Shown one piece after another: positions 24,597 to 64,000 of a stretch of DNA of 64,000 bases; position 1 is the first letter of the stretch, and each line of letters starts with the position of its first letter. Location of the stretch: the NCBI GenBank assembly GCA_028554795.2, contig CM068827.1, positions 71,583,809-71,647,808 on the forward strand. The letters are read 5' to 3'. Made by a program: the position numbers and the translations under genes. The notes beneath the pieces are model-generated. The model did not search any database, was not told the origin of the DNA, and was given only the letters and a program-made list of their open reading frames with translations. The stretch comes from Sinohyriopsis cumingii. Lineage: Eukaryota > Mollusca > Bivalvia > Unionida > Unionidae.

Positions 24597-24608
24597 GATC
24601 TTAGTAGT

Positions 24609-47675: not shown

Positions 47676-48710
47676 CGGAAGACAGGTATAGTGCAATATA
47701 TTGATCGTTCTATGTAATGGTTCTTTGTTTTGCGCTATAAAAGTTTGAATGAATACCATGTGATTATCACATACAAGCGAACTATCGCAACCATAAAGTG
47801 ACGTATAAAAAAGAGTACTTCTACTTAAATTTATATGATACACCCGTTATCTTAAAAAGGTTTTGATGATATTGGAGATGTGGAGATTTATCAAAATCTT
47901 TGATGATTCGTCAAACCGTCTAGGGTTCAATTATGATATTATAATCGTTCAAACAAAGGATCAGTACATTTTGTGAATTACAGCATCCTTTTAATTACAT
48001 TGTCTTGTAGAATCCAAGTACCAACAACATGATAGAAGAAGAATGTGACGGTAAACCATTCCATTTAATAGAACAACCGGTAAACTGTTCCATTTAATGG
48101 AATAACCGGTAAAATGTTTTCATGGAACAATAGCAACCAACCCATTACTAAGTATGCGAAAATGACATTGTCGATAAAACACAATATAGCTAATATCCAT
48201 AACAAATTTAAATTGACGATCACTGGTTCCAAGGTTACGAAACAATTAATATTATCAAATTTACTACCGAGTGAGGCAATTTTAACATAAAGCACACACT
48301 GATTACAAACATATCCGCACATACACACTTGCAAATTGTACATAATTAGATAACGCTCGTTCCAATTTATACCGAAAAATTATTGTCATTTAGAATACAA
48401 AATCTGTTTTATGACTTGAAAACCCTAGGATAATCACGAAATGGGTTAAAATTTATTATCATGATTTCAAAATTAAAACTTTATCGGTCGTTTACAACCA
48501 GTATTTTGCAAATTATAACACCATTACTCAGCCAATTTGAGACAAAAATACTTTTGAAAGGTCTTAAATTTAGAGCTGGACATTTCCGAAAGTACTACCA
48601 TAATTTCTTCTTTCATGTCTGATTTCAGCTGCTTCACATCGAAGAAGGTTATCACTATAGCTGTCGAAAACAAACGCTGTTTTTCAGCTTTTTTCTTTTC
48701 AAAAGCCTAT
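47210..48710. other. Anonymous DNA left of the Polinton
   Basis: Contains a (CA)n tract at 47631-47673 and a 36-bp partial duplication at 48050-48118 ('ccggtaaactgttccatttaatgg'). No gene recognised. Confidence 0.5.
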
Positions 48711-48735
48711 GTAAGTAGTGAATGGGGATACCTTG

Positions 48736-48960
48736 GCCTCAATGAGAATTAGCATTACAGAACCCCTTGGGAACGTTTAGCCTCAATGGAAATTTAACGT
48801 GGGGAAAAATCGTGGGACAATATAGCCTCAAAGGGAATTTAACATGGGAAAAAGTCTTGGGTCACTCTAGCCTCAAGGGGAATTGAACATGGGGAAAAAG
48901 TCTTGGGTCACTCTAGCCTCAAGGGGAATTGAACATGGAAAAAAAAATCTTGGGTCTGTT
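48736..48960 (+). repeat. Terminal tandem repeats of the Polinton
   Basis: Five units of 44-46 bp start with GCCTCAA at 48736, 48780, 48825, 48870 and 48916. The last two are nearly identical, and the outer ones diverge towards the terminus. Subterminal tandem repeats are common in Polinton terminal inverted repeats. The matching right terminus is not in the window. Confidence 0.85.
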
Positions 48961-48986
48961 GAGTGACAAGGGAAAATGGAACAGGG

Positions 48987-49014
48987 TCGGGACCCTATTT
49001 TAATAGGGTTCCGA
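48987..49014. repeat. 28-bp palindrome in the Polinton terminal region
   Basis: Arms TCGGGACCCTATT and AATAGGGTTCCGA pair at 12 of 13 positions with a 2-nt centre. An overlapping alternative palindrome (AGGGTC-gg-GACCCT) lies at its left. It could form a cruciform near the terminus. Confidence 0.75.
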
Positions 49015-49109
49015 CATGATGGGTCTATGAAAAGGGAACATACGAAAATTGAAACAGGGAGGATTCTCTATTTTTTTAAAAAATAAAAAAAGGGTAGGCA
49101 ATTGAAAGT

Positions 49110-49155
49110 CTATCTCTTTTCGTGAAATGTGGGTGGCCCTGAAAAGGGCCTTTGG
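49110..49155 (-). terminator. Histone-type 3' stem-loop and downstream element, gene 1
   Basis: On the minus strand GGCCCTTTTCAGGGCC (49150-49135) is a perfect 6-bp stem with the loop TTTC. It is flanked 5' by CAAA and 3' by ACCCA, as in metazoan replication-dependent histone mRNAs (consensus GGYYYUHUHARRRCC). After 13 nt comes GAAAAGAG (49121-49114), a purine-rich tract in the place of the histone downstream element that pairs with U7 snRNA. Confidence 0.85.
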
Positions 49156-49556
49156 GTTTCTTCTTCTAATTTTTTTCTATTTCTCCACCAGCTTCTTATT
49201 TTCTGTCCTACACTTTTTCTCTTCTTTTCTTTCTTTTCTTCCTCCTTTTTCTCTTCTTTCTGCTTCTCCTCCTCTTCTTTCTTCCTCTTCTCATTTTCTT
49301 CTTCTTTTTCAATTTTTTCGTTCCATTCTCTCATCCTTATCCTTTCCTCTTCATCCTCCTTATCCTCCTTTATTTCTTTCATCAGAGCACTGATCATGTC
49401 CTTTACTTTTCTTAAATTGTTGATCTCCATCTTCACTCAATGGGGACTATAAGAATAGTGATCCTCGTTTAGCCTCACTAACATTTGCTCCATCATACCC
49501 AAATTGTCCAGGACGTCTTGCAAAGTTTTCATTTTATCAAGTTGGTTTGAAGCCAT
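49110..49556 (-). pseudogene. Polinton small gene 1 (stem-loop cluster)
   Basis: The start at 49556 is chosen because it lies 56 nt after the TATA-like box, as in its two neighbours. The N-terminus MASNQLDKMKTLQDVLDNL is Leu-rich and amphipathic. The remainder is extremely rich in Glu, Lys and Arg and would form a charged coiled coil or a disordered tail. It is one of three tandem paralogues, the most diverged at the N-terminus. Its 3' end carries a perfect histone-type stem-loop at 49135-49150. I do not recognise a family and the function is unknown. The locus is broken. Confidence 0.6.
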
Positions 49557-49606
49557 CTTCTTTTTTATTCTCTGTAGAATGGTTTGAACGACGAATACTG
49601 TGGGTT

Positions 49607-49645
49607 CTTATACGAAAAGCGCGGACGTGATGGAAAACATCCCCC
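49607..49645 (-). promoter_or_regulatory. Promoter module of small gene 1
   Basis: On the minus strand: GGGGGATGTTTTCC, then ATCACGTCCGCGC, TTTTCG, and the TATA-like box TATAAG (49612-49607). The CACGTCCGCGC core lies at 49629-49619. A second copy of the upstream motif, without a TATA box, lies at 49688-49713. Confidence 0.75.
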
Positions 49646-49734
49646 TAAAGCCCAAAAGTTATATTACCTAGATCATCACTTAAAACATGCGGACGTGAAG
49701 GAAAACATCCCCTACTTTTCTCATTTCATATGAT

Positions 49735-49879
49735 CTACTATCCACATACCTTAATCAACAATAAACAAACCCCAAATCTACTATCCACACACGCAAAGCA
49801 TTAAAATCAAACCCCAAATTTACTATCCACACAAACCAACTTAAGCTTTTGCATAACCCAATAGTCTACTATCCACACA
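49735..49879 (+). repeat. CTACTATCCACACA repeats upstream of the stem-loop genes
   Basis: Copies at 49735, 49778, 49820 and 49866. Further copies lie at 50643 (diverged) and 50690 upstream of gene 3's 3' end. Read on the minus strand the motif is TGTGTGGATAGTAG. Repetition in the same place in each gene block suggests an upstream regulatory or duplicated spacer element. Confidence 0.65.
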
Positions 49880-49897
49880 AACGTACGTGATCGCTTA

Positions 49898-49898
<1 letters not shown>

Positions 49899-49944
<46 letters not shown>

Positions 49945-49950
49945 ACACAC
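49899..49950. repeat. (AC)n microsatellite within the Polinton
   Basis: AC repeat with one TA interruption, between the gene 1 promoter block and the end of gene 2. Confidence 0.9.
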
Positions 49951-49974
49951 GGAAAAAAGAGCCAGTGTTTATAT

Positions 49975-50400
49975 TTACACTACTCTGCATACACACATTG
50001 GCAAATCGATTGTTATTTCTTTTCTAAAGGTTTGGGTAGCCCTGAAAAAGGCTCTTTGTTTTTGAACTCCATGGCACCTGGATAATGATGGCACCTTCCA
50101 GGCCTGGCACCACACACACATCTTCTTCCCCAGTCTCATTTCACTCTTTTTGAGGGGAGAGCAGAGGCAAGGATAAGTGGCTTCAGAATCCCAGTTTTTT
50201 GTCTCTGGGATTCTGAAATTTCCTCTCTCTTTTTCTTCCTCTTGTTTGTTTCTTCGCTCCTCCTCTTCTTTGTTTCTTCTCTCCTCCTCTTTCATTCTTC
50301 CCTCTTCTACTATGGCCTCTGCAGCCAGCTCATTCACTATACGCCTGGCATATTCCAGGTGTACATGAAGTTCAAGCAGTTTTGCTAGTCTGGTGTTCAT
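49975..50400 (-). pseudogene. Polinton small gene 2 (stem-loop cluster)
   Basis: The ATG at 50400 is chosen (57 nt from the TATA box). The N-terminus MNTRLAKLLELHVHLEYARR aligns with gene 3 (MCSKLAKLNEAYVNLHRVRH), sharing LAKL, the V-x-L spacing and the following Arg. Next is a Glu/Lys/Arg-rich stretch (EEERRNKEEEERRNKQEEEK), then a more ordinary sequence with a KKMCVWC segment. The function is unknown. The 3' part is decayed, so its natural stop is not used as evidence. A histone-type stem-loop lies at 50053-50038. Confidence 0.65.
50012..50058 (-). terminator. Histone-type 3' stem-loop and downstream element, gene 2
   Basis: On the minus strand AGCCTTTTTCAGGGCT (50053-50038) forms a 6-bp stem with one T-G pair and loop TTTC. 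CAAAG precedes it and ACCCA follows. The purine-rich AGAAAAGAAATAAC starts 12 nt downstream at 50025. The downstream tract is the same as in gene 3. Confidence 0.8.
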
Positions 50401-50451
50401 TCCGGTGTTGATCAATCAACAAGGGTAGCTAGAATACCGAGTGATTTTCAA

Positions 50452-50489
50452 TTTATAGTCAAAGCGCGGACGTGAAGGAAAACATCCCC
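50452..50489 (-). promoter_or_regulatory. Promoter module of small gene 2
   Basis: On the minus strand: GGGGATG, then TTTTCCTTCACGTCCGCGC, TTTGAC, and the TATA box TATAAA (50457-50452). The CACGTCCGCGC core is at 50474-50464. A weaker upstream copy of the core (AGGTCCGCGC) lies at 50539-50530. Confidence 0.8.
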
Positions 50490-50777
50490 TAAAACAAAAT
50501 TGATATTACCTAGATCATGACCAAACAACGCGCGGACCTAAAAGAAACACTAACTGACTTTTTTATACTACCCATTACTAATTTAAAAATTTTCATTAAT
50601 CACTTCAATATACCACATACGCAAAGAAATCAAACCCCAAATCTACTCTCCCCACACGTCAAACAGCAAAAAAAACCCAAGATCTTAATCTACTATCCAC
50701 ACAAACGTACGTGAGCACTTACAAACACACAATCATATACACAAACCACTCTACCTACACACATTGGCAAATGGATT

Positions 50778-50825
50778 GTTATTTCTTTTCTAGAGTATTG
50801 GGGTAGCCTTGAAAAGGGTTGTTTT
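50778..50825 (-). terminator. Histone-type 3' stem-loop (degenerate) and downstream element, gene 3
   Basis: On the minus strand AACCCTTTTCAAGGCT (50820-50805) keeps the loop and flanking ACCCC but has two stem mismatches. AGAAAAGAAATAAC begins 13 nt downstream at 50791. The stem-loop starts 32 nt after the stop codon of gene 3, a spacing typical of histone mRNAs. Confidence 0.65.
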
Positions 50826-50851
50826 TTTTTTTTGTTTGCTATGGCAATCTT

Positions 50852-51211
50852 TTAGTTTCTAAGAATGCGACGTCCTCTGACGATAGACTTTCTGACGATA
50901 GGTCTGCTTCTTCGGAAAGAGAAGAAGAACTCTTTGGTGTCGATACGACAATCGACAAAGCCTCTGTCAGCTTCAGGTTGCTGCTGCTGTTGCTGCTGTT
51001 GCTGCTCTCTCTGCTGTTTCTGAAGTCTGTACTTCTCTGTCCATTCTTCTTTCTCCCTGTTCACTTCTTCTCTGAAGAGATCTTCTGTCAGGTCTTCAGT
51101 GACTTTTAGCATTCTCACATTCTCTATCTCTTCTGGCTTCGGTATCAGACTGTGTCTGACCCTATGCAAATTCACGTAGGCTTCGTTTAGCTTAGCTAGT
51201 TTGGAGCACAT
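50852..51211 (-). CDS. Polinton small gene 3 (stem-loop cluster)
   Basis: The ATG at 51211 (MCSKLAKLNEAYVNLHRVRH) is chosen because it aligns with gene 2 and lies 59 nt after the TATA-like box. About 120 residues: the conserved N-terminal helix, a middle rich in Glu/Lys (VTEDLTEDLFREEVNREKEE), a run of nine Gln encoded by CAG repeats, and a basic C-terminus (RRSRPIVRKSIVRGRR) that could bind nucleic acid or act as a nuclear signal. No family is recognised. It has the best preserved frame of the three. It may be early-acting, because it shares promoter and 3' end type with its paralogues and not with the capsid genes. Confidence 0.7.
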   Translation of the reverse strand: MCSKLAKLNEAYVNLHRVRHSLIPKPEEIENVRMLKVTEDLTEDLFREEVNREKEEWTEKYRLQKQQREQQQQQQQQQPEADRGFVDCRIDTKEFFFSFRRSRPIVRKSIVRGRRILRN

Positions 51212-51264
51212 CTTCGTAGGAGGATGAGTCGACAATGGATGGTTAGACTGGAGGCTACCCCGGC

Positions 51265-51300
51265 TTTAAAGTCAAAGCGCGGACGTGAAGGAAAATATCC
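51265..51300 (-). promoter_or_regulatory. Promoter module of small gene 3
   Basis: On the minus strand: GGGATATTTTCC, then TTCACGTCCGCGC, TTTGAC, and the TATA-like box TTTAAA (51270-51265). The core is at 51287-51277. It is nearly identical in spacing to the modules of genes 1 and 2. Confidence 0.78.
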
Positions 51301-51429
51301 CTCCATGGTTTTCGAGCCGGAACGTTCAATGAGTGTCATGAGAGGGATAGTAAGAAGTCAAAGAGCATAAATCAACATTCTTATAGCCAAACAAAAGACA
51401 AAGGCACTTTTTTCAAAACACAACATTTT

Positions 51430-51435
51430 TTTATT
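51430..51435 (-). terminator. Poly(A) signal of the capsid-protease cluster
   Basis: AATAAA on the minus strand, about 110 nt after the protease stop codon. It is the first such signal downstream of the block of capsid genes. Confidence 0.65.
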
Positions 51436-51544
51436 CAAAATCACTTAACACTAACAAACAACTCTAAGATTTTTTAACAATAACTCAACAATATAACATC
51501 AAACTTTTTTTTCTAATGACAAACATTTTTTTTCAATTAACACT

Positions 51545-52105
51545 CTACTTTAAACAGGGTTGACAACGTTGTGAATGAAATTGTGATTTCCACTGTTGGA
51601 AGTCATTAGGCCATTGATGGACACTACGTTTCCTAGCTTGAGACAAAAGATAAGCATAATGGTGACAAAACCATTGATCTACTTTCACATCGTTTCTAGA
51701 AGAAGAACGAGGATCAAAATGAGTCACTAAATGTTCTAAGGAATAGCCCAGGCTGCGATGATGCAGAAAATACACACAATATTGTCCACACACCAAGGAA
51801 TCTGTGCCTTGTAATTTCACATTATTGAGTCGGGTGGTCTGAGCATTTCTTTTCATAAAGTCAATGATATCGTCTTCCAAAGGGGGCAATCCATACGAAT
51901 CAAAATATTCCACACATCCTTCTTGAGGAAAGTAGACGGCTACCCGGTGGGTTCCTGGGAGATGACTGTCGTCAGTGTTGATCACATAAGCTAGATGGTC
52001 TTGAGGTTTGCGATGAGGGAGTTCATCTTTAGCACAGACGACAGGATTCCAAGAAGCCGTGTACGAACTGTGGTTCAAAAGGTAATAAAGTTCCCAGGTA
52101 TCCAT
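51545..52105 (-). CDS. Adenain-like cysteine protease
   Basis: 186 residues, the usual length for adenovirus/Polinton maturation proteases of the Ulp1-like C5/C48 fold. The catalytic triad is visible: His in GTHRVAVYF (about residue 54), Asp in VEYFDSYGLP (about 70) and Cys in LVCGQYCVYFLHH (about 112, with the Gln of the oxyanion hole before it). Family members cleave capsid and core precursors during virion maturation. The ATG at 52105 opens directly on MDTWELYYLL, the normal start of the family. It is the last gene of the structural block and lies 36 bp after the preceding acidic gene. The frame looks whole. Confidence 0.92.
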   Translation of the reverse strand: MDTWELYYLLNHSSYTASWNPVVCAKDELPHRKPQDHLAYVINTDDSHLPGTHRVAVYFPQEGCVEYFDSYGLPPLEDDIIDFMKRNAQTTRLNNVKLQGTDSLVCGQYCVYFLHHRSLGYSLEHLVTHFDPRSSSRNDVKVDQWFCHHYAYLLSQARKRSVHQWPNDFQQWKSQFHSQRCQPCLK

Positions 52106-52141
52106 GTTTTGTGTGTTTTTTTCTTCTTCACAGGTAATAAG

Positions 52142-52624
52142 TCACCAAATCGTCCTGACTTTTTGCTTGAAAATGTCTGACAAATAACCGTTTCTTCGCT
52201 TCGTCTCCCCACTCTGATTCAGGAGAGCTTCGATACGATGGATCTCTTGAGTGGTTAATGGTGGACAAGAATGTTCACGCAAGTCTTTATACCACTGGTG
52301 CAACACGACTTCGTCCGAGATGAGACTCCAAGCTTCCTCCAGATACTCGTTCAATTTTTCTTCTTGACTCAGCATTAGGCATTTATCGTGTTGAATTTGA
52401 CTGGGATGATCGTTTTGACATCCATAGCAATCTTTTTTGATCAATTCCGTCATTTTTTCGACCAAGTGTTTGGCAAAACAGGAGACTAAATGGTCTTCTT
52501 GTTCTGGCCATCTTGACTTCATCATGATAACTTCGTCTTTGTCTTGAGATTCTTCTTCCCCGGTCTCCTCACATTCCATCTTCAAAGTTTCTCCACTAGG
52601 TAAAGAGGGATAACAGTCTTCCAT
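52142..52624 (-). CDS. Unknown acidic Polinton protein with Cys/His motif
   Basis: 160 residues. Residues 1-35 are acidic (CEETGEEESQDKDE). The central part has a Cys/His cluster KKDCYGCQNDHPSQIQHDKC that could bind zinc. The C-terminal half is helical and charged with WYKDLREHSCPPLT. It sits between major capsid (6 bp away) and protease, so it is probably part of the late structural transcript. I do not recognise the family with certainty. It may correspond to one of the unnamed small Polinton proteins. Confidence 0.6.
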   Translation of the reverse strand: MEDCYPSLPSGETLKMECEETGEEESQDKDEVIMMKSRWPEQEDHLVSCFAKHLVEKMTELIKKDCYGCQNDHPSQIQHDKCLMLSQEEKLNEYLEEAWSLISDEVVLHQWYKDLREHSCPPLTTQEIHRIEALLNQSGETKRRNGYLSDIFKQKVRTIW

Positions 52625-52629
52625 GGCTT

Positions 52630-53953
52630 CTAATAGTCTAGATTGACTTCTCTCAAACTGTTGATTTCTATGGTATTGTCAAATTCTGCATACAGGATGA
52701 CGATCACTGTGTGATCTGGAGGTGGATTTGCAAACTGAAGTTCCACACGAATCTGACCCGATTTTATAGGGTGGAAATGTCCCTCGTCGCTACCTTGGTC
52801 TGGAGTGAAATCAAAACCCCACAAAGCGTAGCCTCCTGCATAATCGTCGTACGAAATACCGTGACTGGTATTGGTTCCTAACTGTCCGGTGGCTTCGTAC
52901 ACGGACAAGTACGATCTCAGATAATTCTTCGCGACACCAAAGTTGGGCTCAAAGGGTCGGGTACACAAGGTCTTGCCGTCGCAACTGACTTCGATCTTGG
53001 ACACATTGTAATGTTGAAACTCAAAAGGATTTTGATCGTGGGTTCCGTTGAAGGCTGAATTCCTGACGATACCAACAATCAAACGCTTGGGTAACTGTCC
53101 TTGGAACAGATGATCTTCGATCATAGATCGCTGTCCAGCGGGAATGGTGAACGTTTTCACTTCTACGCGTCTTATCGGATACTTGGCGGTCGTTCTGCTC
53201 AACGTCTGACTGACGTCGTTTCCCACTTTAGGTAACACTTCCACACGACGCATGTAAAGTCGGGCTTCTTGAATGATAGCTTTGTATTCATTGGCATGGG
53301 CCATCAAATGGAAAGCGGCACTGCTACGATTCAGTCTCAGACGGATATCCACCCCGTTGAGCAAATACTTTTCTTGTAACCACATGTCCAAATGCAAACG
53401 ATCCATCAGTTCTAAACTTCGCCCTTGCAGAATTTTCTTACGACGGTCGTTAAACCCCACATTGTGAGGATTGTCATCTTCTGTCAGGACTGTGTCGCTA
53501 AACGTGGCTACACCTGCCGTGTCAGGTTTCCATACCACGCAAGCATCCAGATGAGTATTCTTGGTTTCTTTTCCGTACGTCAAGAGATTTTCCAGGTAGG
53601 CACGGTATGGGTAAGTATCCATGCTGCTGCTGACCAGTTTGTTATTCAAGTACAAGTCCACTTCGCTGAACAAGGAATGCATGAAATTGTTGACAGGAGC
53701 TACTCTAGCATCGCCTCTTGGATTGGTGTTGTCCGTTTTGATCACTTTCACTTTCATACAGGTAACTGCTATTCAGATCGATGTAATCTTCGGGTTGTCC
53801 TTTGATTTCAAACTCGATGGGAGCGGAATCCGTCAAAGAGGAGACGGGATGAAATTCCACCCACTGGGATTCTTGCATGGTCATCATGGTGGGGGGCATG
53901 GCAAACAGATCCAGTTCTGACTTGGAACAGGCGCAAGACTCTCGGTGCATCAT
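52630..53953 (-). pseudogene. Major capsid protein (double jelly-roll)
   Basis: The locus begins MMHRESCACSK at 53953 and ends at DYA-type sequence at 52630, about 440 codons, the family's normal size. Recognisable blocks are an N-terminal segment with 'FEIKGQPEDYIDL', then RVAPVNNFMHSLFSEVDLYL, an RAYLENLL block, the YGKE-x-K region, LNGVDIRLRL, and a C-terminal GYALWGFDFTPD. In relatives this protein forms the pseudo-hexameric capsomers. Its neighbours are the basic pX/pVI-like gene 12 bp upstream and the acidic unknown downstream. The locus is broken. Confidence 0.88.
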
Positions 53954-53965
53954 TTTTTCTCTTTC

Positions 53966-54391
53966 TCAATAATCGAAAACGTCTAAGTCTCGAACGGTTC
54001 TTCTTTTCTTTGCCTTTCTAGCTTTAGAAGTGTGAAGTCTGGTGAAAGGGTGTTTTCTTCGTCGTCTCTTTCTGCCTTGTCCTTGCTGAATGCCTGACTC
54101 AGTAGCGTGCAGGGCATTTATAGGTGTGTCTCGTCGGCCCAAAAGGTCTTTGCCCGTTTGCAGCAAGACATTTTTGCCTGCCCTCATGAAGGCTTCTTTA
54201 GGATTTTGTTTGTCGATGATGACATTTTGGAGAAATTCTTTGCCTTGTGTCAGTGCCGCATCTTTCAAGGCGTGCAATCCGCGTGTCACCATCGGTTTCA
54301 ACACCGGGGCCACCGAACGAAAGGCCGATTTTAACATATCTCCTAAACCGTGTCCTCGCTGTCGAGCAACCCCTCGGTACACTGGATACAT
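53966..54391 (-). CDS. Basic minor core/capsid protein (adenovirus pX/pVI-like)
   Basis: 141 residues starting MYPVYRGVARQRGHGLGD. The N-terminal half has a Gly-rich start and an amphipathic helix (MLKSAFRSVAPVLKPMV) like those of membrane-lytic or internal capsid proteins. The C-terminus is strongly basic (GRKRRRRKHPF, KARKAKKRR) and suited to condensing DNA or nuclear import. Polintons and adintoviruses carry such a gene between penton and major capsid, as here. It follows the penton stop by 3 nt. The frame looks whole. Confidence 0.75.
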   Translation of the reverse strand: MYPVYRGVARQRGHGLGDMLKSAFRSVAPVLKPMVTRGLHALKDAALTQGKEFLQNVIIDKQNPKEAFMRAGKNVLLQTGKDLLGRRDTPINALHATESGIQQGQGRKRRRRKHPFTRLHTSKARKAKKRRTVRDLDVFDY

Positions 54392-54394
54392 GAC

Positions 54395-55327
54395 TTACGA
54401 ATCGCGAGAGAACCGTTTTCGAAAATGGAGTTTCACCGTGACTTTTCCTTTGGTGAATGAAATATTTTGTCCCAGATCTCCTTTTATAGCAATGTTGACC
54501 GTGTCCAAATACGACCTGCTGACAGGCAAATAGTGAGGATGTACAAATTCGCGGTGAACGTGGTAAGTGTTTCCACCTTCCTCGTCAGTGACCGTGGCAG
54601 AATCCACTTTGAAAGGAATGACACGCAGTAACGGCACAGAGGTGTGTCCCACCACGTTATACTCCACCACATCGGAGTACACAAACATCAAATTCAGTCC
54701 TTGGTTCAGTTCTACCGGGGTACGAAATAACTTGCTAAAAGACTCGTTGTCGTAAACGATGGGTAATTCGTTTTTCTTCATCATGGCCTTTCCCATGTCC
54801 ATGTCTCTGCCCAACATGTCAAACAATTCAGGACAAAATAAAATGGACACGATTTTACTCCCGTCAAATTTCATCAAGAAGCGACAAGCTGCTTTGTGGT
54901 ATTCCATGGTGACACTTTTTTTGACACTTTCCAAAGCTTTCAGAAACACGACATTAAACCTGGAGGCTCTGGTGCTCAACAAATGTTGACCACTAAAATA
55001 ATAGCCTGGGGGAACGAACAAGTGATAGGTGGTGTACTTTTGATTTTTTGTGCCAGGGGTTTTCTTGTCATATTTGCCATGGGTATCCAAGTACTGTTGC
55101 AATTGTTCGTCATGAACTTCCACTTCAAAAAAATTTTGATTGGGAAGGACATTGAGGACTTGGGTCGGGTGAATGATTTCTACTAAAGCCACTTCCCAAT
55201 GGGCTTCGTGATCTAATGGGATGGTCTGAGGTAATTTGGCCGTGTAACAGCACAACGTGTTCTTGGGAAACACCTCCATGGAACTGTCACTGGGTAAGGT
55301 TAAGTAAAATTGGTTTTGGTGACTCAT
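54395..55327 (-). CDS. Minor capsid protein (penton-like, single jelly-roll)
   Basis: 310 residues, starting MSHQNQFYLTLPSDSSMEVF. The opening block with NTLCCYTAKLPQTI, the HWEVALVEIIHP motif and the following LPNQ block are conserved in Polinton minor capsid proteins, which in structural models form the vertex pentamers. The C-terminus has a VNIAIKGDLGQNISF strand region. It overlaps the end of the upstream membrane-protein locus by about 40 bp. The frame looks whole. Confidence 0.85.
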   Translation of the reverse strand: MSHQNQFYLTLPSDSSMEVFPKNTLCCYTAKLPQTIPLDHEAHWEVALVEIIHPTQVLNVLPNQNFFEVEVHDEQLQQYLDTHGKYDKKTPGTKNQKYTTYHLFVPPGYYFSGQHLLSTRASRFNVVFLKALESVKKSVTMEYHKAACRFLMKFDGSKIVSILFCPELFDMLGRDMDMGKAMMKKNELPIVYDNESFSKLFRTPVELNQGLNLMFVYSDVVEYNVVGHTSVPLLRVIPFKVDSATVTDEEGGNTYHVHREFVHPHYLPVSRSYLDTVNIAIKGDLGQNISFTKGKVTVKLHFRKRFSRDS

Positions 55328-55733
55328 AATTCCAGAGTTCTGTGGCTGTCCGAGGGTTACTGGACGTCAGAGGCGTGTCTCCGCTCAAAATGGGGTTATT
55401 GTTGTTGTTGGAGTGGTGACTGGCACTGGCACTGGACACAAGGTTCCCGTGGTTCCCGTTCGAGGAGAATTTCAGGGAGGGATTGGGAAGCAGGTAACCG
55501 ATGCAACTGCTCAATAAAATGGTCCACAATTGTTTGTCTCCTTGTTGCAAACTCAAATTGGCAATGGCTGCCCCGATGACACAATACACCACGAAGATTT
55601 GGCAGAAAAAGACGATTTGCGTTTTAGGCACACGTTCTCCACACCACACCCACAAGGGTTATTTTTGTAAATCTTGCAGAGAAGAACTAGGTGAAGGAGT
55701 GGTCGACGTAGCTGTGTCTATGTGAAAGGGCAT
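55287..55733 (-). pseudogene. Small membrane protein of the Polinton
   Basis: The Ser/Thr/Pro-rich leader starts at 55733, 6 bp after the integrase end. Two hydrophobic segments follow: IVFFCQIFVVYCVIGAAIA and LWTILLSSCIGYLLPNPSL. The second (LW-x-LLSS-x-GYLLP-PSL) is a recurrent signature of small Polinton membrane proteins. The tail is Ser/Asn-rich (SNNNNN). It is probably a virion or entry-related membrane protein, but the role is not established. The locus is broken. Confidence 0.6.
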
Positions 55734-55738
55734 GATGA

Positions 55739-56849
55739 TCACTTCTTTTTATAGTCGATGACTTGCGAAGCGTCGATCCAAGAATCAAAACTGGGCGGAT
55801 ATCCTTTCCAACGTACTGTGACTTCTTTGACACGTCGTTTGCTCACTTTACGGGTTCTGCATTCGAGAATGCTTTCGATGTCGTACACGTCGTCTTCTTT
55901 TTTGGTGACACGTTGTAACTCGGGTAAGTAAAACGTTCCTTTGATCACTTCTCCGTTCATGTCTTCCAATTTATAGACGGCAGGATGACGGCAATGCACT
56001 CGTCCAGTGACACGAAACAATTCGGTCGTCCAGTTAGGTAAGTAACCTTTGTCGAAAGTGCGTTTGGTTTTGCCAATGCGTACCCAATCTCCTACGGTCA
56101 ATACTCCACTTTTCTTGGGGGCAGCCCTCTTCGGGGACGTACCAAACAGGCGCTCAAACACCAGCACTTCGTTTTCGGGAGTCACTTCTTGCGGGGCACG
56201 TCCGATGCTTCGATGGTAAGATTGACTGTACGCTTGCACCAGGTGCGGTAAGATGTCGATGTACTTCAGAGTGTGGTGATGCGTAAAATATTTCCACATA
56301 CGTTCTTTCAAAGTCCGTTGAAAATGTTCCACGATGCTGGCTTTGGTTTCGGGATTCTCGGTGGTAAAAAAAATGAATGTCACGTTTCTTTAATTCTTTT
56401 TGGAAAGCTTGGTTCAGAAATTCGGTGCCTTTGTCCGTTTGCCATCGAAGAGGGTGACGATCGCTTTGTTTCATCACTCGTTGCAGGGCTCGCACTAACT
56501 CGCTGCTCGATTTGGAAGTCAAGGGTACGACCCAGGCAAATTTGGAAAAGACGTCGATGACACAAAACAAATATTTGTAGCCACGATTGTAGCTGGCCAA
56601 ATGAGAGATATCGGCTAAATCGGCTTGCCATTGATGATCGATGTCTTCCACATGGGTGCGACTTCTGGAAAACTTGCATCGAATGGGTTTGTGTAAAGTG
56701 TAGGTAGCTTGTTCTTGTAACCATCGTTGCACTTGAGGTAAAAGGAGACTTTTCAGTCGCATTTTGGCAGCACGATACAATTTTTGAACTCCTGCGTAAC
56801 CTGCAGGATGCGAGGGATCGTAGTAAATGCTGGCTAACACTTTTTCCAT
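55739..56849 (-). pseudogene. Retroviral-type integrase with C-terminal chromodomain
   Basis: The first ATG, at 56849 (MEKVLASIYYDPSHPAGYAG), matches the usual Polinton integrase start. The order is a zinc-binding-like N-terminal region, then the catalytic core with Asp in WQADLADIS, Asp in WQTDKGTEF and Glu in the ASIVEHFQRTLKERMW region (DDE triad), then an SH3-like segment (VGDWVRIGK), and finally a chromodomain (DIESILECR...TVRWKGYPPSFDSWI) at the extreme C-terminus. It inserts the element and makes 6-bp duplications in this family. The chromodomain could steer integration to methylated histone tails. The locus is broken. Confidence 0.9.
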
Positions 56850-56863
56850 TTTGTGTTTGTGTG

Positions 56864-57667
56864 TTAATAAGGCATCCACTCTTGGAAGATGCTACTCTTT
56901 TTCTCTTGGGGTACTTTCTTGGATTGCAATGCTTTGCGTGTGCGACCAGCAATAGGTGTCGCAGAGGAGGATGTCGGAACAGGGGATATCGGTTCTTGTT
57001 TCACTTCTGTCTTCACTTCTGTCTTCACTTTCTTTTTCTCTTGTGATGAAGAAGGAGTGGTCATCATCTTTTTAATCCATCCAATTCTGGAGGTAGGTGG
57101 TGTTGTTAACTTGCGTACTTTTTCTGGTGGAGTTTGAAACCCTTCTTCTTCTTCTTTTTCTGTCTTGGTCACTGGTAGTGGTGGTGGTGGTGGTGGTGCT
57201 GGTGATGGTGCTGGACTTTTCATCAAGGTCTTAAAATCTTTCAGAGTGGCAAGAGCTATTTCGTCTAAAGCTTTCTGGTGAAAGAGTTGCAGTCGTTGCA
57301 AGAGTTGACCGTACTTTTGCGATTTTTCTGTTTCGGACAAATCTTGGTGATCCATCAAGGACTGCAATTCGTGTTGTAACTGGGACATTTCGTTCAAATG
57401 GGGATTGGGAGGTAAATGCGGGGTGCGTCGTTCTTGCCAACGATGGTATTCCATCCATCGTTTGTTTAGCTCGAAAAAGCGTTTGGTTTGATGAGGAATC
57501 TGAATGATCCCTTGGAGTAATTGACGTGCTGTTACCGTGAACCATCTTAAGACTTCTTTGAGACTAGCTTCTAAGACACGAGCTCGTGTTTGTGGATTTT
57601 TTTCTCGACTGATGCCATACAAGGCACGAATCAATTTGACGGGAAGATGCGACTGAAGGGACGTCAT
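56864..57667 (-). CDS. Unknown Polinton protein with helical N-terminus and Pro/Lys-rich tail
   Basis: The ATG at 57667 (MTSLQSHLPVKLIRALYGIS) is preferred over upstream in-frame codons because it avoids overlap with the ATPase and has a TATA-like CTATAAC about 40 nt upstream. About 267 residues. Residues 1-160 are helix-forming with two heptad-rich stretches (MSQLQHELQSLMDHQDL; LLQRLQLFHQKALDEIAL). From about residue 160 it becomes Pro-rich (PAPSPAPPPPPPLP), acidic, then Lys/Ser-rich with VKTEVKTEVK repeats. It could be a scaffold or core protein, but no family is recognised. The frame looks whole. Confidence 0.6.
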   Translation of the reverse strand: MTSLQSHLPVKLIRALYGISREKNPQTRARVLEASLKEVLRWFTVTARQLLQGIIQIPHQTKRFFELNKRWMEYHRWQERRTPHLPPNPHLNEMSQLQHELQSLMDHQDLSETEKSQKYGQLLQRLQLFHQKALDEIALATLKDFKTLMKSPAPSPAPPPPPPLPVTKTEKEEEEGFQTPPEKVRKLTTPPTSRIGWIKKMMTTPSSSQEKKKVKTEVKTEVKQEPISPVPTSSSATPIAGRTRKALQSKKVPQEKKSSIFQEWMPY

Positions 57668-57732
57668 GTTGACGTTGTGTGAGACAGACGAAAAGTGTCT
57701 GAGGTTGTTATAGATTTTTTTGTGGAATGAAA

Positions 57733-58461
57733 TTAAGTCGAGGACGGAGACGTGTACAGGACAGGCCCTCCGTCTTGGCACCAGTGGTGAAACAAGTGGG
57801 TACGAAATCGCAAATCATCGGGGGTCGTAGGTTTCAAATCGACGAGTAAATAGGCGTGTGCAGTTTGAGTGGCATCGTCGTACGCCTGAGTCAGCCAAGG
57901 CGTTCCTAACTGTTTGGCTAAGACTTGCACTTGCGATTTATCTCGAGGGCTTTTAAACAAGACCACGTAATGCACATTGAGACTGATGGTGCGATGGGCT
58001 TTACTTTGTTGAAACAAATTTTGAGTGATGTAAACGACACTGGCATTACGATGATGCCCTTTGCGCGTGAACCACAGTTTAATTTCTTCTTCGTCTTCTC
58101 CTAACATGTCATCGAAAATGACCAAATGGGTTTGACGGGAGTCAGAGACGATGCCGTCGTCTTCTTTAGGAATGCCTTCCACAAACACGATGGAATCGCC
58201 TTGACTTTCTCGCAAGAGGCTGTACACCGATTGCCACTCTTTGTAACACCACACGATGCGTTGAGGTGGATGATCGATCAAATGATATTTATGTTCGATC
58301 AAACGTTTGACGAATTCGGTTTAGCCTGAACCGCTGGGTCCAGCAATGAGCATGTTAAAGGGATGGCGAAGATACAAAGCCTCCCAACTGGCACGATCTA
58401 AGTGTTCGTCGATGACTCTGACAGTAGAAGAAGAGGGAGCAGAGACAGCAGAGGTAGCCAT
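57733..58461 (-). pseudogene. FtsK/HerA-type DNA packaging ATPase
   Basis: The ATG at 58461 (MATSAVSAPSSSTVRVIDEH) lies 46 nt after a TATA box (58514-58507). Motifs in order: Walker A in LIAGPSGSG, Walker B in THLVIFDDMLGE, and the sensor-like SVVYITQNLF. The C-terminal part contains HYVVLFKSPRDKSQV. Such ATPases pump the genome into the capsid in adenovirus-like and Polinton-like lineages. Its neighbours are the Pro-rich unknown downstream and the possible BCL2-like locus upstream. The locus is broken. Confidence 0.88.
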
Positions 58462-58506
58462 AGTGTCAGAATGTCACTTGTGACACGAAAACAAACAAGA
58501 CGAGAG

Positions 58507-58514
58507 TTTATATA
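58507..58514 (-). promoter_or_regulatory. TATA box of the packaging ATPase gene
   Basis: TATATAAA on the minus strand, 46 nt upstream of the ATPase start codon and just after the end of the preceding locus. Confidence 0.7.
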
Positions 58515-58520
58515 CTTTTT

Positions 58521-59302
58521 TCAGGACACGTTTATTGAATGTTTAAAATATGAACAACACGAAAGACAAAAAATACATAAAATCCAAATAGTTATGTACA
58601 GGAATAAAAAACACATCAAAACAATCAAAGTGGAATATAAACAAGTCTCTGTACAACATGTTTTGGGTAACCAAGATGTCCTAGGAATAGTGTGTAATGT
58701 TCTTACAGTCTCTACATGAGGTATTGTCACACAATTGTCCTCCCGGAATGACCTTTCAGGAATGTCCATGTCAGTCCTGTCCTGAAGCGAGTGGTTGTTC
58801 TCGGTGACGGGTTCTTCTGGCACTGTCACTAACACAGGTTGAAAAGTAACTTTTTTCCTTGAACAATTCTCGTGCATACTGGGCCACTTCTTGGGTCCAA
58901 GCCTCAACACCCCCCTTTTTCCAGTCACGAACATCTGTCAAGTGGGGGTGTAAGTCACAAGCTACACACACATCGTCATACACGTCTTCGGTAGCTAAAA
59001 GTTGACGAATCTTTTTTGCCGTTGAGGTATCCAGATGAAAACACAAGGCTTGAGCAAAAGGAGTCTTTCGTGACCATTTAAGGCCATTGGGGTGCTAAGT
59101 ACTGTTCGTAAGGAGTCCATAAGGAATCGGCTGGTAAACGAAATCCCAGAAAACAAGTCACTAAGACACACACCACTTGTCGACCCAAATTGAATGGGTA
59201 CAGTTCTTGTAATAATCGATGGTAATGATCCACGGTTTGAATATGGTCATTGAGTTCCTTCCAAGGAATCTGTTCAATTACATGTGACATAAGTCGTGGC
59301 AT
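58521..59302 (-). pseudogene. Possible BCL2-like membrane-anchored locus
   Basis: A decayed locus between the BIR gene and the ATPase. From its 5' end it shows a helical start (SHVIEQIPWKELNDHIQTVD), a segment FNLGRQVVCVLVTCFLGF that resembles a BH1 region (N-W/L-GR-V-L-F-G), later RDWKKGGVEAW, which recalls a BH2 region (W..GG..), and near the 3' end a hydrophobic stretch (LIVLMCFLFLYITIWILCIF) like a tail anchor. BCL2-like genes are known in adintoviruses and many DNA viruses. The resemblance is my inference from short motifs. The locus has several breaks and could be something else. Confidence 0.35.
58531..58536 (-). terminator. Poly(A) signal at the end of the BCL2-like locus
   Basis: AATAAA on the minus strand, directly before the ATPase TATA box. 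Confidence 0.55.
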
Positions 59303-59311
59303 GGCAGCCTG

Positions 59312-59319
59312 TTTTTATA
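59312..59319 (-). promoter_or_regulatory. TATA box of the possible BCL2-like locus
   Basis: TATAAAAA on the minus strand within GACTATAAAAACAG. It lies 22 nt upstream of the ATG at 59290 (MSHVIEQ), the more plausible start. The ATG at 59302 is probably too close. Confidence 0.6.
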
Positions 59320-59438
59320 GTCTCTTTGTTTCGGAAACAATACACGTACTTTCTAGCCAGAGATCTTCGTTCTCGGTGATGTTGAACATTTCACTCCTAG
59401 CCAGTCTGGTTTCTTCTTCAACGACATGGTAAGTTACT

Positions 59439-60074
59439 TCAATGTCTCGGTCCCACTAAGGGTAAGTAATGACAATTCGGTGACCAACGAGCATGTTCTA
59501 GGTAGGCCGAATCTTGCGGTTCCCAGTGGTGAAGTGACACACCGGAACTGAAGCAGTTGACTTTATCTCCTTCACCCAAGTAGTAAAATCCGGCTCTGGC
59601 TAATTCTTCAGGGGTCGATCCTTCCAGATACTTAGGCCATTTTCCTTTGAACGATTGAAGACGATTTTCAAAGTCGCAGTATTCCGACAAACGCACAGGG
59701 AACGAATATTCGTCTTTCACAGGTTCGTTTCGATGAGGTTTGGGTGACATGGACAGGAGTTTGCTCAGGGCTGGATGACATCCGCAATGAGGTAGACGTG
59801 AAGGTGGACATTCACCTTTAAAACGAAACCCAGTAAAGTGTCCAAGAGGACGAGCGGCATCGCTTTCGTATCTCTCAGGTTTGGCACGCACAGCATCACT
59901 TTCCATGATAGGGGCAGTGAAAACAAAGTTCCCATCATGCTTTACGGCATCGCTAAGGTCACAGCGTACAGCATCGTTCCCATCGCAAGGCTCACAATCG
60001 CATTCCACTTCAGAAGCCCCACACTTGAATTGTGCCTTTCTAAATTTGTTTTGTGTTTCTCTGAAAGTATTCAT
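59439..60074 (-). CDS. BIR-domain (inhibitor of apoptosis-like) protein
   Basis: 211 residues starting MNTFRETQNKFRKAQFKCG. The N-terminal half is low in family signal, with Cys-rich (VECDCEPCDG) and repeated DAVR-type motifs (NDAVRCDLSDAV, SDAVRAKPE). Residues about 130-205 form one BIR domain: RLSEYCDFENRL, KWPKYLEGSTPEELARAGFY, YLGEGDKVNCF, LHHWEPQDSAYLEHARWSPNC. Family members block caspases or regulate signalling. A viral-type copy would keep infected cells alive. No RING domain is seen. It has its own TATA box 57 nt upstream, and PolB lies just beyond. The frame looks open end to end. Confidence 0.85.
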   Translation of the reverse strand: MNTFRETQNKFRKAQFKCGASEVECDCEPCDGNDAVRCDLSDAVKHDGNFVFTAPIMESDAVRAKPERYESDAARPLGHFTGFRFKGECPPSRLPHCGCHPALSKLLSMSPKPHRNEPVKDEYSFPVRLSEYCDFENRLQSFKGKWPKYLEGSTPEELARAGFYYLGEGDKVNCFSSGVSLHHWEPQDSAYLEHARWSPNCHYLPLVGPRH

Positions 60075-60130
60075 CTTGTTCGCTTGGTCTTGGTAGTCAC
60101 AATGAACTATCGATCTTGCCTAGGGTTCCT

Positions 60131-60139
60131 TTTTATATA
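60131..60139 (-). promoter_or_regulatory. TATA box of the BIR gene
   Basis: TATATAAAA on the minus strand within TGTATATAAAAAGG, 57 nt upstream of the BIR ATG. It overlaps the very end of PolB. Confidence 0.7.
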
Positions 60140-63100
60140 CAGACCAATACCGACGTGTCCATACGGTAAGGTGAAATGATTGGGAAGTCGCACTCGCTTC
60201 TGTGCACTTCTCCTTGTTTGTCCCGGTATTCGTAGCCGTAATTTTTAGGATCGCCACTGGCGAAATTTAGAATCTTGCCGTCGGGATGCTCGTCTGTCCA
60301 GGCTCCTAAACGGTCTCCTTCGATGTCAGGGTGCTGTTGACTTGGGTGATGGATGTAAATGCAACTATCCGTGTCAAAGTACAGGACACGTTCCCCTAAC
60401 AGTTCTAAAGCTTCGTACAATTTTAAGCGAGCATGGGCTGTCACGTAAGCCGCAATGATGACATTTCCAAAGGGGTCGTCTTGTACAAAGTCCAGATCTT
60501 CTTCGTAATTCACTAAGATAAAATCCTCGCGAACGACGTCCACGTGTTTCATGTATTTGGTTTTGTCGTGAATCATCTGGAAATAGCGGGAAGGTTCTGT
60601 CAAATATTCCGTCTTGGGTAAACACGGTCGTTGTGCCATTTTTCCCCTCAAGCAATTTAACATCACTTTGGCAAACGATCGCCTGCCTTCGTTTTTCTCG
60701 ATGTGGTCTAAAGGGATGCCTTCTTGTGCCCAGTACTTCTCTTTGAATGTCTTTTGGTCTTCGGGAGTGTGACACCAGGACGGATAGCCGCTGGCTTCTT
60801 GCTTCAGTTTCAAAAAGGCATCCACGTAGTCGGCGAAAATGCCTTTCTGAGTGAGGTCACCCTTGTGATATTGTTCTGTCTTGGGAAAGTGACAAATTTC
60901 GTACACTTCTAACAGTTGATATCCCATGTTCAGAGCTTTGAACAATTCTACGCTGACCCAGGTTCCCGTCAAGGCCCGTTCTTCCTGGGTGTGATGGCAA
61001 GGTTGATCGTGGTTGCAAGTTTCCGCACAAGTACGGCACAAAGGAAACATCAATTTGCCTTGGCAATGGTGAGGTAACACGGGATGGTACAAGTCCGTGG
61101 GAGGCAAAACTTTACACTTGATCAGACCTTCGTATTGTCGAATGTTTTTCAGGTCGATGTGTTCCGTCAACAATTGTGGGTGCCCTACAGGAAAGCGACA
61201 ATATTTGCACACGTAAGGATACAGCGAACACACGTAAAAGTATTTCATTTCTTCTCCTTTCTCTTCGTCGGCTTGGTACAGCAAACAGGTGGCATTGGTC
61301 CTTCCTCCGTACAAACTATCGATCGGGTTCAGCGGGTCCATGAACTGGTAACTTTCCACGAGGCGTTTAAACTCGGTATCGGTTTCCAAACGGTGATCGT
61401 ACTCGTGTTCCCACATTTCCACCACTTGGTATCCTTCCTGTTCTAAATTTAGGCGTCGCTGACAAGTAGCCTGGTACAAGTCTTCCATGGTCCGTTGTAA
61501 AAACTGATTTTTAGTGTCTCGGTCAGGGTAACAGACGGGACATCCGTGAAATAAGCAACCGTTAAACTCGTACACGATCTTGGGGTTTTCTAAGTCCCAG
61601 CCATCGACCGAATGCGTTCCGATGGTCTTTTCAACTCCTCCGTTGCGGGCATGCTGAATCCGTTCGTCTTCCTTGTCGCACAAGTAATGTAACCAGCGTA
61701 GGGCTTTGACCGAGTATTGACGTTTGACATAGTTGGTCGTTTGAGGACTGATGATAGCCACGGTGTTTTCAGGCATGAATCGTTGGCGGTACACTAAGGA
61801 ACACGCTTTGGCAATGGTGCAAGCTTCTTTCAAAGGATCGACCCCTCCGTGTTCCATGAACAGTTCTCGAAATTTTCCACAGCATCGCCGTAAAATGTCC
61901 ACATCGGAACGACAATACTTTAGCATTTCTTCCTGAAAGTCGAAAGGGTCCGAGGCGTGAGCCTGGTACCAAGGGTAGAAAGCTTCTCGTTGTTCGGTAC
62001 GCATGTTGTCGGGGTCGTAATAGTGAGCCTCAGGTAAATGGGGTAGAACGGCGTGTTGATTGGCTTCCGTATTGAAAAAGTGTGGAAAGTACCCTTTAGC
62101 CATTTCTGTCATTCCAAACGTTTTAGGCATTCGACTCAAAGGCATGGCTAAGTAACTCATCGAATCTTTAAACTTCACTTGTCCCGGAGAAATTGTGAGC
62201 CATCACTGTGGCATGACGATGACAATCTCCGTAACGTTCGATGTCCTCATGGCTCCACGTCTTGTCGATGGGGTCTAAGACCCATTGGGCAAAATCGACC
62301 AGCGTGTTCGGCCCTCGAAAGATTTTTTCACGCCCTCCAGGAATCTTGCTGCAGTGAGGGCAATGACTGAACATAGGTTCTTGAATACACTTGTCGCACG
62401 CTCGATGAGCCACGCATAAATTAGGAATGTGAATACCGGTCTCTTGCATGCATTCGAAATCGAAAAAGATGAAATTGCCTTTCTTCTTGTGTCCATCCTC
62501 TTTCTCTCGTGGGGATTGGTATTTTTGCACGTAGCATTAGTGTTCCAAGTCCATGATGTGGTGACAAATGTGACATTTTTTCTTTCCTGACCATACGTGT
62601 GCCTTGGCACTGTTGGTACGTATGCCTTGTCCACTCGTAGAGCACAATCTCAGCAGTTGACAAGCGCATTTCTTCTGTGAACCTTGCGTGTTCAGATGTT
62701 GTTGGTAACAGGCGGGGCTGACAAACGTGCGCAGACAAGCTGAACAATGCACTGGTTCTTGCCCTTCGTTCAGACAGGGTGGAGAGGCCAAACATTTTGA
62801 GCATTTCGAGCCACAGTGCTTGTGTTGCTCTCGATTGTTATAGCCATAGTCACATTTCTCACAGTAATAACCGTATCCCAGGAATCCAGTGATACTGGTA
62901 ATGGTATCGAAATGGTCATCGTGATGATAGACATGAATGTATTTTCCGTCCTTAAAGTCTTTCCTTCGAAACAACAGAGGCCCACGCATTTCTTGAGGAT
63001 GCACTTTCATGGTGTATCGTGGAGCTAGGGCATCTTGCAATTTTTGCATCTCAGGAATGCCACAGGGTGTGTCTTTGGGAAAGCCAGCTTGTTGTAACAG

Positions 63101-63877
63101 GAGTTCTGCTTCTTTTCGTTGTTTGGCTCGGTGCGATTGTCGAATAGTTTTCCAGGCTCTTTTCCATTCTGCCGTGTCGTTCTTATCGGCATAGGTTCGT
63201 CCCACCACGATGGCCCTGGCTAAACACATCTGGTCTTCAGGGTTGTGAATTCGGACGAGACTCTTTTTGGTGCTGCGAAGCTCGTCCACCAATAACATCT
63301 TTTTGCGTCCAGTCCCTTGAGGAGGAGAGACGTGGGTCATGGACAGTGTGGCTTTTCCATCGGTGATGTCAAACTGGTCATTGGATTGTTGCACGTGTTG
63401 AATTTTGTCCATGACTTTGGAAGCGGTCAATTCTGCAGGGCTGCTAAACTCGATCCAAACATGGGATTTCAAGCCGTCGTGTTGTATGGAAAGTCTCAAG
63501 CGATCGTCTTCTTTAGGTTGACATTGTCGCTTGAATGTGGTGAGTAAAGAATCCTACACGCCGGTGATGAACCCTTCTGCTTTCTCCAACGGTACTTCGG
63601 ACTTGAAATTTTTAAACTTCACCGTGTATTTGTAAGCCGTGGTTCTAAATTTTCTAGAGGAGCGCTTTTCTGTCTCTCGAATGTCATAGTACTTTTCAGG
63701 GTTGACTAAGGGTGGTGAACTTTGTTTAGAGGGTTTGGATTCTGGTTCACTCATGTTCTCTTCAAAATCACTGGCATGAATTTGTGCCAAGACTTCAGCC
63801 CTGGTACGAGGCGATAGATCACGTTTCTGCCTCTTACTTTCTTCTTCTTTCTTCTCAAATGAATTGGATCGTTTCAT
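60133..63877 (-). pseudogene. Protein-primed DNA polymerase B
   Basis: The locus starts at 63877 (MKRSNSFEKKEEESKRQKRD, a basic Ser-rich leader) and spans about 1,250 codons, normal for Polinton PolB. In order: an N-terminal region with KVMDKIQHVQQSNDQFD and the VSPPQGTGRKK block; a Cys/His-rich region (YYCEKCDYGYNNREQHKHC, then CSKCLASPPC and CSACLRTF); the 3'-5' exonuclease with FFDFECMQ; a FNGCLFHGCPVC block; and polymerase motifs SLYP, KVMLNCLRGKMAQ and YFDTDSCIYI (the catalytic Asp pair). It replicates the element from a terminal protein. The locus has a few breaks. Confidence 0.92.
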
Positions 63878-63925
63878 CTTGAGTGCAAAACGTCAAATGA
63901 CTAAAGTTTAAACACCACAGACTAA

Positions 63926-63931
63926 TTTATA
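63926..63931 (-). promoter_or_regulatory. TATA box of PolB
   Basis: TATAAA on the minus strand within GGACTATAAATTAG, 49 nt upstream of the PolB start. The GACTATAAA context recurs before small gene 2 and the BCL2-like locus. Confidence 0.7.
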
Positions 63932-63948
63932 GTCCTGGCAGACCAGCG

Positions 63949-63957
63949 TATATAAAA
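63949..63957 (+). promoter_or_regulatory. TATA box for a rightward gene beyond the window
   Basis: TATATAAAA followed by GGG on the plus strand. It lies 18 bp from the PolB TATA box and points the other way, so the element probably has at least one divergently transcribed gene to the right. No start codon is seen before the window ends. Confidence 0.6.
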
Positions 63958-64000
63958 GGGTATGTGTTTTGTCCTTTCACTATTCATTTCACTCTCAAAC

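Follow-up and report, generated by a model that had tools for sequence, protein, structure and literature searches.

Histone-type 3′ stem-loops on three small non-histone genes next to, and probably within, a Polinton in Sinohyriopsis cumingii

Three small genes lie next to one another on the minus strand of a 64-kb stretch of the Sinohyriopsis cumingii genome (contig CM068827.1, positions 71,583,809 to 71,647,808; this whole stretch is the window, and all positions below are counted in it), adjoining the core gene array of a Polinton (Maverick). An earlier note on this DNA had claimed that each of the three ends in a stem-loop of the kind that terminates replication-dependent histone mRNAs, followed by a purine-rich tract. 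The computational analysis described here makes a histone-type signal on these non-histone genes credible; they lie next to the Polinton and probably within it. Coordinates are collected in Table 1.

Stem-loops and downstream purine tracts

A histone 3′ end is defined by a 6-bp stem, a 4-nt loop, an A-rich 5′ flank and ACCCA on the 3′ side, in a usual spacing and with a known consensus. The stem-loops of genes 1 and 2 (SL1 and SL2) both fit this arrangement. SL1, which reads GGCCCTTTTCAGGGCC between CCAAA and ACCCA, matched the Rfam model RF00032 (Histone3) over the full model length (49155-49110, minus) with 43.4 bits, the gathering score being 34, and an E-value of 1.5e-9. When the whole window was run through cmscan, it was the sole Rfam match at gathering level. 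SL2 reads AGCCTTTTTCAGGGCT followed by ACCCA; its 5′ flank, CAAAG, exceeds that of gene 1 by one base, so that the 'same flanks' noted earlier for the two genes are shared in ACCCA and differ on the 5′ side.

The scores fall from one gene to the next, and this counts against a histone-type element on all three. In a permissive scan of 47800-64000, SL2 gave 18.8 bits (E 0.57; 50058-50014), which is under gathering, and the stem-loop of gene 3 (SL3) gave no RF00032 match at E≤10; one of the three thus passed the gathering score. Folding energies were −11.4, −6.6 and −1.1 kcal/mol for SL1, SL2 and SL3, and the fold of SL3 is not the histone-type pairing. Based on the Rfam scores, the motif scans described below and the folding energies, SL1 is classed as a firm histone-type element, SL2 as a probable one, and SL3 as a decayed one that is recognizable through its context. 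Accordingly, the earlier claim of a stem-loop on every gene stands for gene 1, applies with less force to gene 2, and is true of gene 3 only as a relic.

How often such sites arise by chance was estimated with two motif scores, both of which were devised after the motif had been seen and applied to paralogous units, so the finds are not independent. On the first score, taken over both strands of the 64 kb, SL1 reached 8 and SL2 7 (second-best), and the next site 4. On the second, the 2.4-kb cluster holds two sites at 13 (SL1 and SL2) and one at 11, all with AAAGA downstream. Among 1000 dinucleotide shuffles of the minus strand of 48950-51340, no site reached 13, as against the two observed, and there were on average 0.006 sites per shuffle with a score of at least 11 and AAAGA downstream, as against the three observed. 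The rest of the 64 kb, both strands included, has one more site of this latter kind.

The purine tract had been placed 12-13 nt past the stem-loop. It is present in all three units, where GAAAAGA begins 13, 13 and 14 nt after the stem, respectively. By itself, however, the tract is no rarer than chance, which again tells against the histone-type interpretation: TAGAAAAGAAATAACAA at up to three mismatches gave two matches in the search, both exact, where 1.09 would be expected, and at least two arose in 29 of 100 shuffles.

Between SL1 and SL2 the outer pair is changed on both sides (G-C, A-U) and there is one U-G change, with full pairing kept. Covariation was nevertheless dropped as a proof of the stem, since three sequences are uninformative. 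On the unfavorable side, the counts of paired positions over the three sequences were not above those of shuffles, being reached in 260 of 500, and a shift of the 3′ side by one column raised the covariation score from 0.278 to 0.444.

It is very improbable that the stem-loops are chance hairpins, or a conserved protein-coding motif misread as RNA structure. Such a misreading would be helped by the frames of genes 1 and 2, which are open through the stem-loops. Chance is opposed by the E-value of the RF00032 match and the empty result at score 13 in the shuffles. As to coding, the first bases of SL1 and SL2 sit at different codon positions of their frames, and therefore what they share is nucleotide, not protein, sequence; SL3, in addition, comes after the stop of gene 3. 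A conserved coding motif is thus disfavored by codon register and by that stop.

Table 1. Window positions of the three units, the adjoining gene array and the candidate left end
Feature	Position	Strand	Remarks
Stem-loop 1 (SL1)	49135..49150	-	6-bp stem, TTTC loop; with flanks CCAAA and ACCCA, 49130-49155
Stem-loop 2 (SL2)	50038..50053	-	6/6 pairs; ACCCA on 3′ side
Stem-loop 3 (SL3)	50805..50820	-	decayed: 4/6 pairs, 2 broken; ACCC kept, ACCCC present
Purine tract 1	49111..49121	-	GAAAAGAGATA; starts 13 nt past stem; candidate U7-binding element
Purine tract 2	50012..50024	-	GAAAAGAAATAAC; 13 nt past stem of SL2
Purine tract 3	50778..50790	-	GAAAAGAAATAAC; 14 nt past stem of SL3
Gene 1	49110..49556	-	frame from ATG 49556; in-frame stop 49437-49439; Glu/Lys-rich; continues through SL1
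Gene 2	49975..50400	-	141 codons; Glu/Arg-rich; frame continues through SL2
Gene 3	50852..51211	-	119 aa; stop precedes SL3
Promoter box, unit 1	49616..49637	-	TTTTCCATCACGTCCGCGCTTT; partial second copy 49684-49705
Promoter box, unit 2	50461..50482	-	22-nt box match
Promoter box, unit 3	51274..51295	-	22-nt box match
TATA box, unit 1	49607..49612	-	TATAAG, picked by eye; 17 nt from CACGTCCGCGC, 56 nt to first ATG
TATA box, unit 2	50452..50457	-	TATAAA, picked by eye; 17 nt from CACGTCCGCGC, 57 nt to first ATG
TATA-like box, unit 3	51265..51270	-	TTTAAA, picked by eye; 17 nt from CACGTCCGCGC, 59 nt to first ATG
Polinton core	51545..63877	-	protease, MCP, small basic protein, penton-like, integrase with chromodomain, ATPase, BIR gene, PolB; several genes broken
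Minisatellite, 45-46 bp	48733..48984		at candidate left end; possible terminal repeat

Promoters, coding parts and poly(A) signals of the units

Judged by their sequence layout, the three genes are copies of one expression unit, in which a box is followed after 17 nt by a TATA-like hexamer, after a further 56, 57 or 59 nt by the ATG, and, past the coding part, by the stem-loop and, 13, 13 or 14 nt on, by GAAAAGA. The box TTTTCCTTCACGTCCGCGCTTT, which contains CACGTCCGCGC, is present with 0, 0 and 1 mismatches across the units. At up to three mismatches the 22-nt box has four matches in the window, all inside the units (0.00 expected); searched with up to two mismatches, its 11-nt core occurs six times, five of them in the units and one at 25451 (1.69 expected). 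The spacing from the start of CACGTCCGCGC to the TATA-like hexamer is constant in all three units. Assuming a start 30 nt past the TATA box and an end at ACCCA, the predicted mRNAs are 453, 395 and 441 nt long. Motifs resembling TGTGTGGATAGTAGA are repeated upstream of units 1 and 2 (49733-49870 and 50628-50710), and an (AC)n run occupies 49897-49950.

The likeness between the units is strongest at their ends. Pairwise aligned identity is 73, 67 and 73% for the promoters and 78, 72 and 85% for the 3′ ends, and both regions outscore all 200 mononucleotide shuffles in each of the three pairs. The coding parts do so in no pair. With a score of 13, genes 2 and 3 are about as alike as the average shuffle (10.0), and each of them compared with gene 1 scores between the shuffle mean and the shuffle maximum. 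This likeness is not independent evidence of selection, because the units are paralogous. Gene conversion or recent duplication could also keep the 3′ ends alike, which has to be set against a functional reading of them.

It is improbable, if less so than a chance origin, that the stem-loops are functionless passengers, left by chance capture and copying of a host histone gene end. The gradient from SL1, which is near the Rfam consensus, to the progressively weaker SL2 and SL3 would suit such a history, as would the two of three frames that run through the stem-loop. Yet the spacing is near-fixed in all three units, the 3′ ends are more alike than the coding parts, and SL2 retains six pairs despite its changes. 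Moreover, no histone family was matched in Pfam at E≤0.1 by genes 1-3, gene 1 being tested minus its first 39 codons; the earlier statement that none of the proteins resembles a histone is thereby borne out, and a histone gene remnant was rejected on the same result.

The coding parts themselves bring three difficulties for the proposal that functional genes end in these stem-loops. First, the frame of gene 1 is broken by a stop after 39 codons. Second, genes 1 and 2 have no in-frame stop ahead of the stem-loop, and only gene 3 has one. Third, gene 3, the sole unit with a stop before its stem-loop, is the one that carries the broken stem-loop. With the frame open through SL1 and SL2, an mRNA cut there would be without an in-frame stop in the present copy. 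Decay of this copy likely accounts for the missing stops, because it also has a broken integrase and, by eye, an interrupted ATPase frame; it may no longer yield working proteins.

The downstream open reading frame (ORF) of gene 1 (49110-49430) had no Pfam match at E≤0.1. Gene 2 gave two matches at E 0.04-0.07 and gene 3 one at E 0.058, all of which fell short of the cut-off. The structure model of gene 3 has helices at 3-22 and 26-75 and a low-confidence tail (mean predicted local distance difference test score, pLDDT, 70.6), the tail being Arg-rich by sequence; it is a guess that the product of the gene binds DNA or takes part in early control. An LxCxE motif was found in none of the three ORFs. 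Within gene 2, at about 50180-50220, lies a palindrome, TTCAGAATCCCAG ... CTGGGATTCTGAA.

On the minus strand from 48700 upward, AATAAA occurs four times, at 58536, 51435, 49569 and 49374. The one at 51435 stands 110 nt past the stop of the protease gene. A search covering AATAAA and ATTAAA found no minus-strand AATAAA between any stem-loop and the box of the next unit, nor from SL1 to 48700. Two facts are less favorable to processing at the stem-loops: the signals at 49569 and 49374 are within unit 1, before SL1 and some 470 and 660 nt past SL2, and an ATTAAA is found 131 nt past SL1.

The Polinton array and the place of the cassettes

The array next to the cassettes is identified as a Polinton from its predicted proteins, because it contains the integrase (rve) and chromo domains and PolB and shows homology, in the same relative order, to the array of a distant relative. 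Pfam named PolB (PF03175, E 2.2e-31), rve (PF00665, E 3.1e-14) and chromo (PF00385, E 1.4e-6), the two integrase matches falling in two overlapping frames of one broken gene. Seven of the ten array proteins had no family at E≤0.01, and no ATPase, protease, major capsid protein (MCP) or penton-like protein was named; in PHROGs, PolB alone matched of the seven proteins tested. The labels MCP, penton-like and minor capsid are those we take to apply to Polinton-core genes. A weak likeness to S273R was found for the protease (E 0.0068). For the MCP, there was no significant match in PDB (best E 0.83) and none in phage records. A structure model of it, made without an alignment, had a mean pLDDT of 34.8, too poor to confirm the fold, and was discarded.

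Scanning prokaryote genome contigs with the integrase yielded three contigs, L001-L003, which are distant relatives. On L003 the array runs ATPase, two small genes, integrase, penton-like, small basic protein, MCP and protease, names which are presumed here in the same way. The window has the same relative order, with one gene, not two, between ATPase and integrase; in addition, MCP and protease are separated there by a further ORF (52142-52624). In single comparisons with L003, E-values were 6e-29 for the ATPase, 4e-31 for the protease, 6e-12 for the penton-like protein and 4e-9 for the small basic protein; the integrase is 40% and the MCP 37% identical. L001-L003 carry Polinton-type arrays or integrases in bins of bacterial metagenome-assembled genomes (Ignavibacteria, Nomurabacteria) and are probably eukaryotic or viral contigs.

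Inside the Polinton of the window there is also a gene with a BIR (inhibitor of apoptosis) domain (59439-60074, minus; PF00653, E 7.5e-21), with TATATAAAA upstream. At the far edge of the array, TATATAAAAGG stands on the plus strand at 63940-64000 and TATATAAAA near 63950, which suggests a divergent gene beyond the window. Elsewhere in the window, a satellite-like long array (45111-47142) translates as YSSSKLYHVFFFQT repeats, and ORFs resembling those of a non-long-terminal-repeat retrotransposon were seen by eye at 22812-25928 (minus).

A position of about 48714, ahead of the 45-bp minisatellite, is the probable left end of the element; the cassettes would therefore fall inside it. An alternative, unlikely but the strongest of those considered, is that the cassettes belong to the host and form a small tandem gene family, with ends of histone type, that adjoins the left end of the Polinton. 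The right end and its terminal repeat lie beyond the window, which makes the left end a candidate and counts for this alternative; the six inverted pairs found in the window were CA-repeat matches. The 4-mer composition cuts both ways. The genic parts of the cassettes are nearer the Polinton than the flank (0.57/0.36, 0.52/0.30 and 0.44/0.18), and the three stretches between or behind the genes are nearer the flank than the Polinton (0.08/0.21, 0.16/0.47 and 0.35/0.47), the latter in favor of host genes. So is the GC content of the cluster (0.37-0.44), intermediate between flank and Polinton core. Against a host family stand the position of the cassettes, directly behind the Polinton genes on the same strand, and the minisatellite and candidate terminus beyond gene 1 (48714-48984). 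What the earlier note had placed on a Polinton is therefore best described as follows: homology and gene order make the array a Polinton, and the cassettes are beside, probably inside, it.

Relatives, in which the earlier note would have sought the same element, do not help the proposal that the cassettes belong to the Polinton. None of L001-L003 had an Rfam match at E≤1, and only L003 extends beyond the protease, where it has a different gene, penton-like by eye and unlike the cassettes; this, too, would fit host genes in the window. Scans of IMG/VR produced no usable relative: in three of them 1, 3 and 88 stretches, respectively, matched a pattern and none was confirmed, the zero results for the stem-loop patterns being weak because those patterns had no positive control.

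Proposed use of the histone 3′-end pathway and comparison with known systems

In metazoan replication-dependent histone mRNAs, the stem-loop replaces poly(A), SLBP binds it, the U7 small nuclear ribonucleoprotein (U7 snRNP) pairs downstream, and processing is tied to S phase, as set out in parts of PMC9756948 and PMC5706932. The explanation that we favor, as reasonably probable, is that the three genes are tandem copies of a cassette belonging to the Polinton, each made up of a promoter with the shared GC-rich box and a TATA-like box, a brief coding region and a 3′ end of histone type. While the element was active, host SLBP would have bound the stem-loop and host U7 snRNP would have paired with the purine tract; the transcript would have been cut just past ACCCA, and no poly(A) tail would have been added. 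The encoded proteins, which are small and in part helical, would thereby have been confined to S phase, and the protease gene, possibly with other structural genes, would have used ordinary polyadenylation. From the signals at the 3′ ends, we infer such SLBP/U7 processing and S-phase coupling of the cassette transcripts, and likewise that the cassettes are inside the element and that their proteins would serve it. Taken together, the data suggest that the element tied small genes to the phase of host DNA replication.

The evidence is a single decayed copy in one genome, and this is a further point against our proposal. For the broader claim that a lineage of animal Polintons has an S-phase module, in which small genes share a common promoter box and SLBP/U7-processed 3′ ends, apart from polyadenylated structural genes, the odds appear evenly balanced.

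Should this hold, a metazoan 3′-end pathway known from histone genes would have been adopted by a mobile element that bears a capsid. The timing of part of a Polinton's gene expression to host DNA replication would then have a direct, testable explanation, and SLBP and U7 would have natural non-histone substrates. In addition, the transcripts would escape poly(A)-selected RNA libraries.

Among the titles and abstract openings listed in searches of the open-licence literature, no report was found of histone stem-loops terminating Polinton or virus genes. The earlier description of such usage as undescribed is nearly right. It has to be qualified by section 16 of PMC12220804, which counts six 'histone 3′UTR stem-loop' matches (UTR, untranslated region) in a collection of Polinton-like viruses and virophages, and none in cryptophyte elements. 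These matches are the same kind of element as the one considered here; that section gives their number alone and is silent on where they lie, on the genes and on any downstream element. Histone-like proteins of other animal viruses are treated in PMC11071296 and adintoviruses in PMC8363768; the word 'stem-loop' is absent from the main text of both.

Compared with histone genes, the cassettes are alike in the 6-bp stem, the TTTC loop, the A-rich 5′ flank, ACCCA and a purine tract about 13 nt on. Histone genes would also broadly resemble them in promoter, spacing and organization as short tandem genes with a TATA-like box. The cassettes are unlike histone genes in that their coding parts match no histone family and that they lie in or beside a Polinton. 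Compared with Polintons (Mavericks) and adintoviruses, the window is alike in combining PolB, a chromodomain integrase, ATPase, protease, MCP, penton-like protein and small basic protein in one array. It is unlike them in two respects, namely the three-gene cassette with histone-type ends, which is not in L001-L003, and the gene with a BIR domain.

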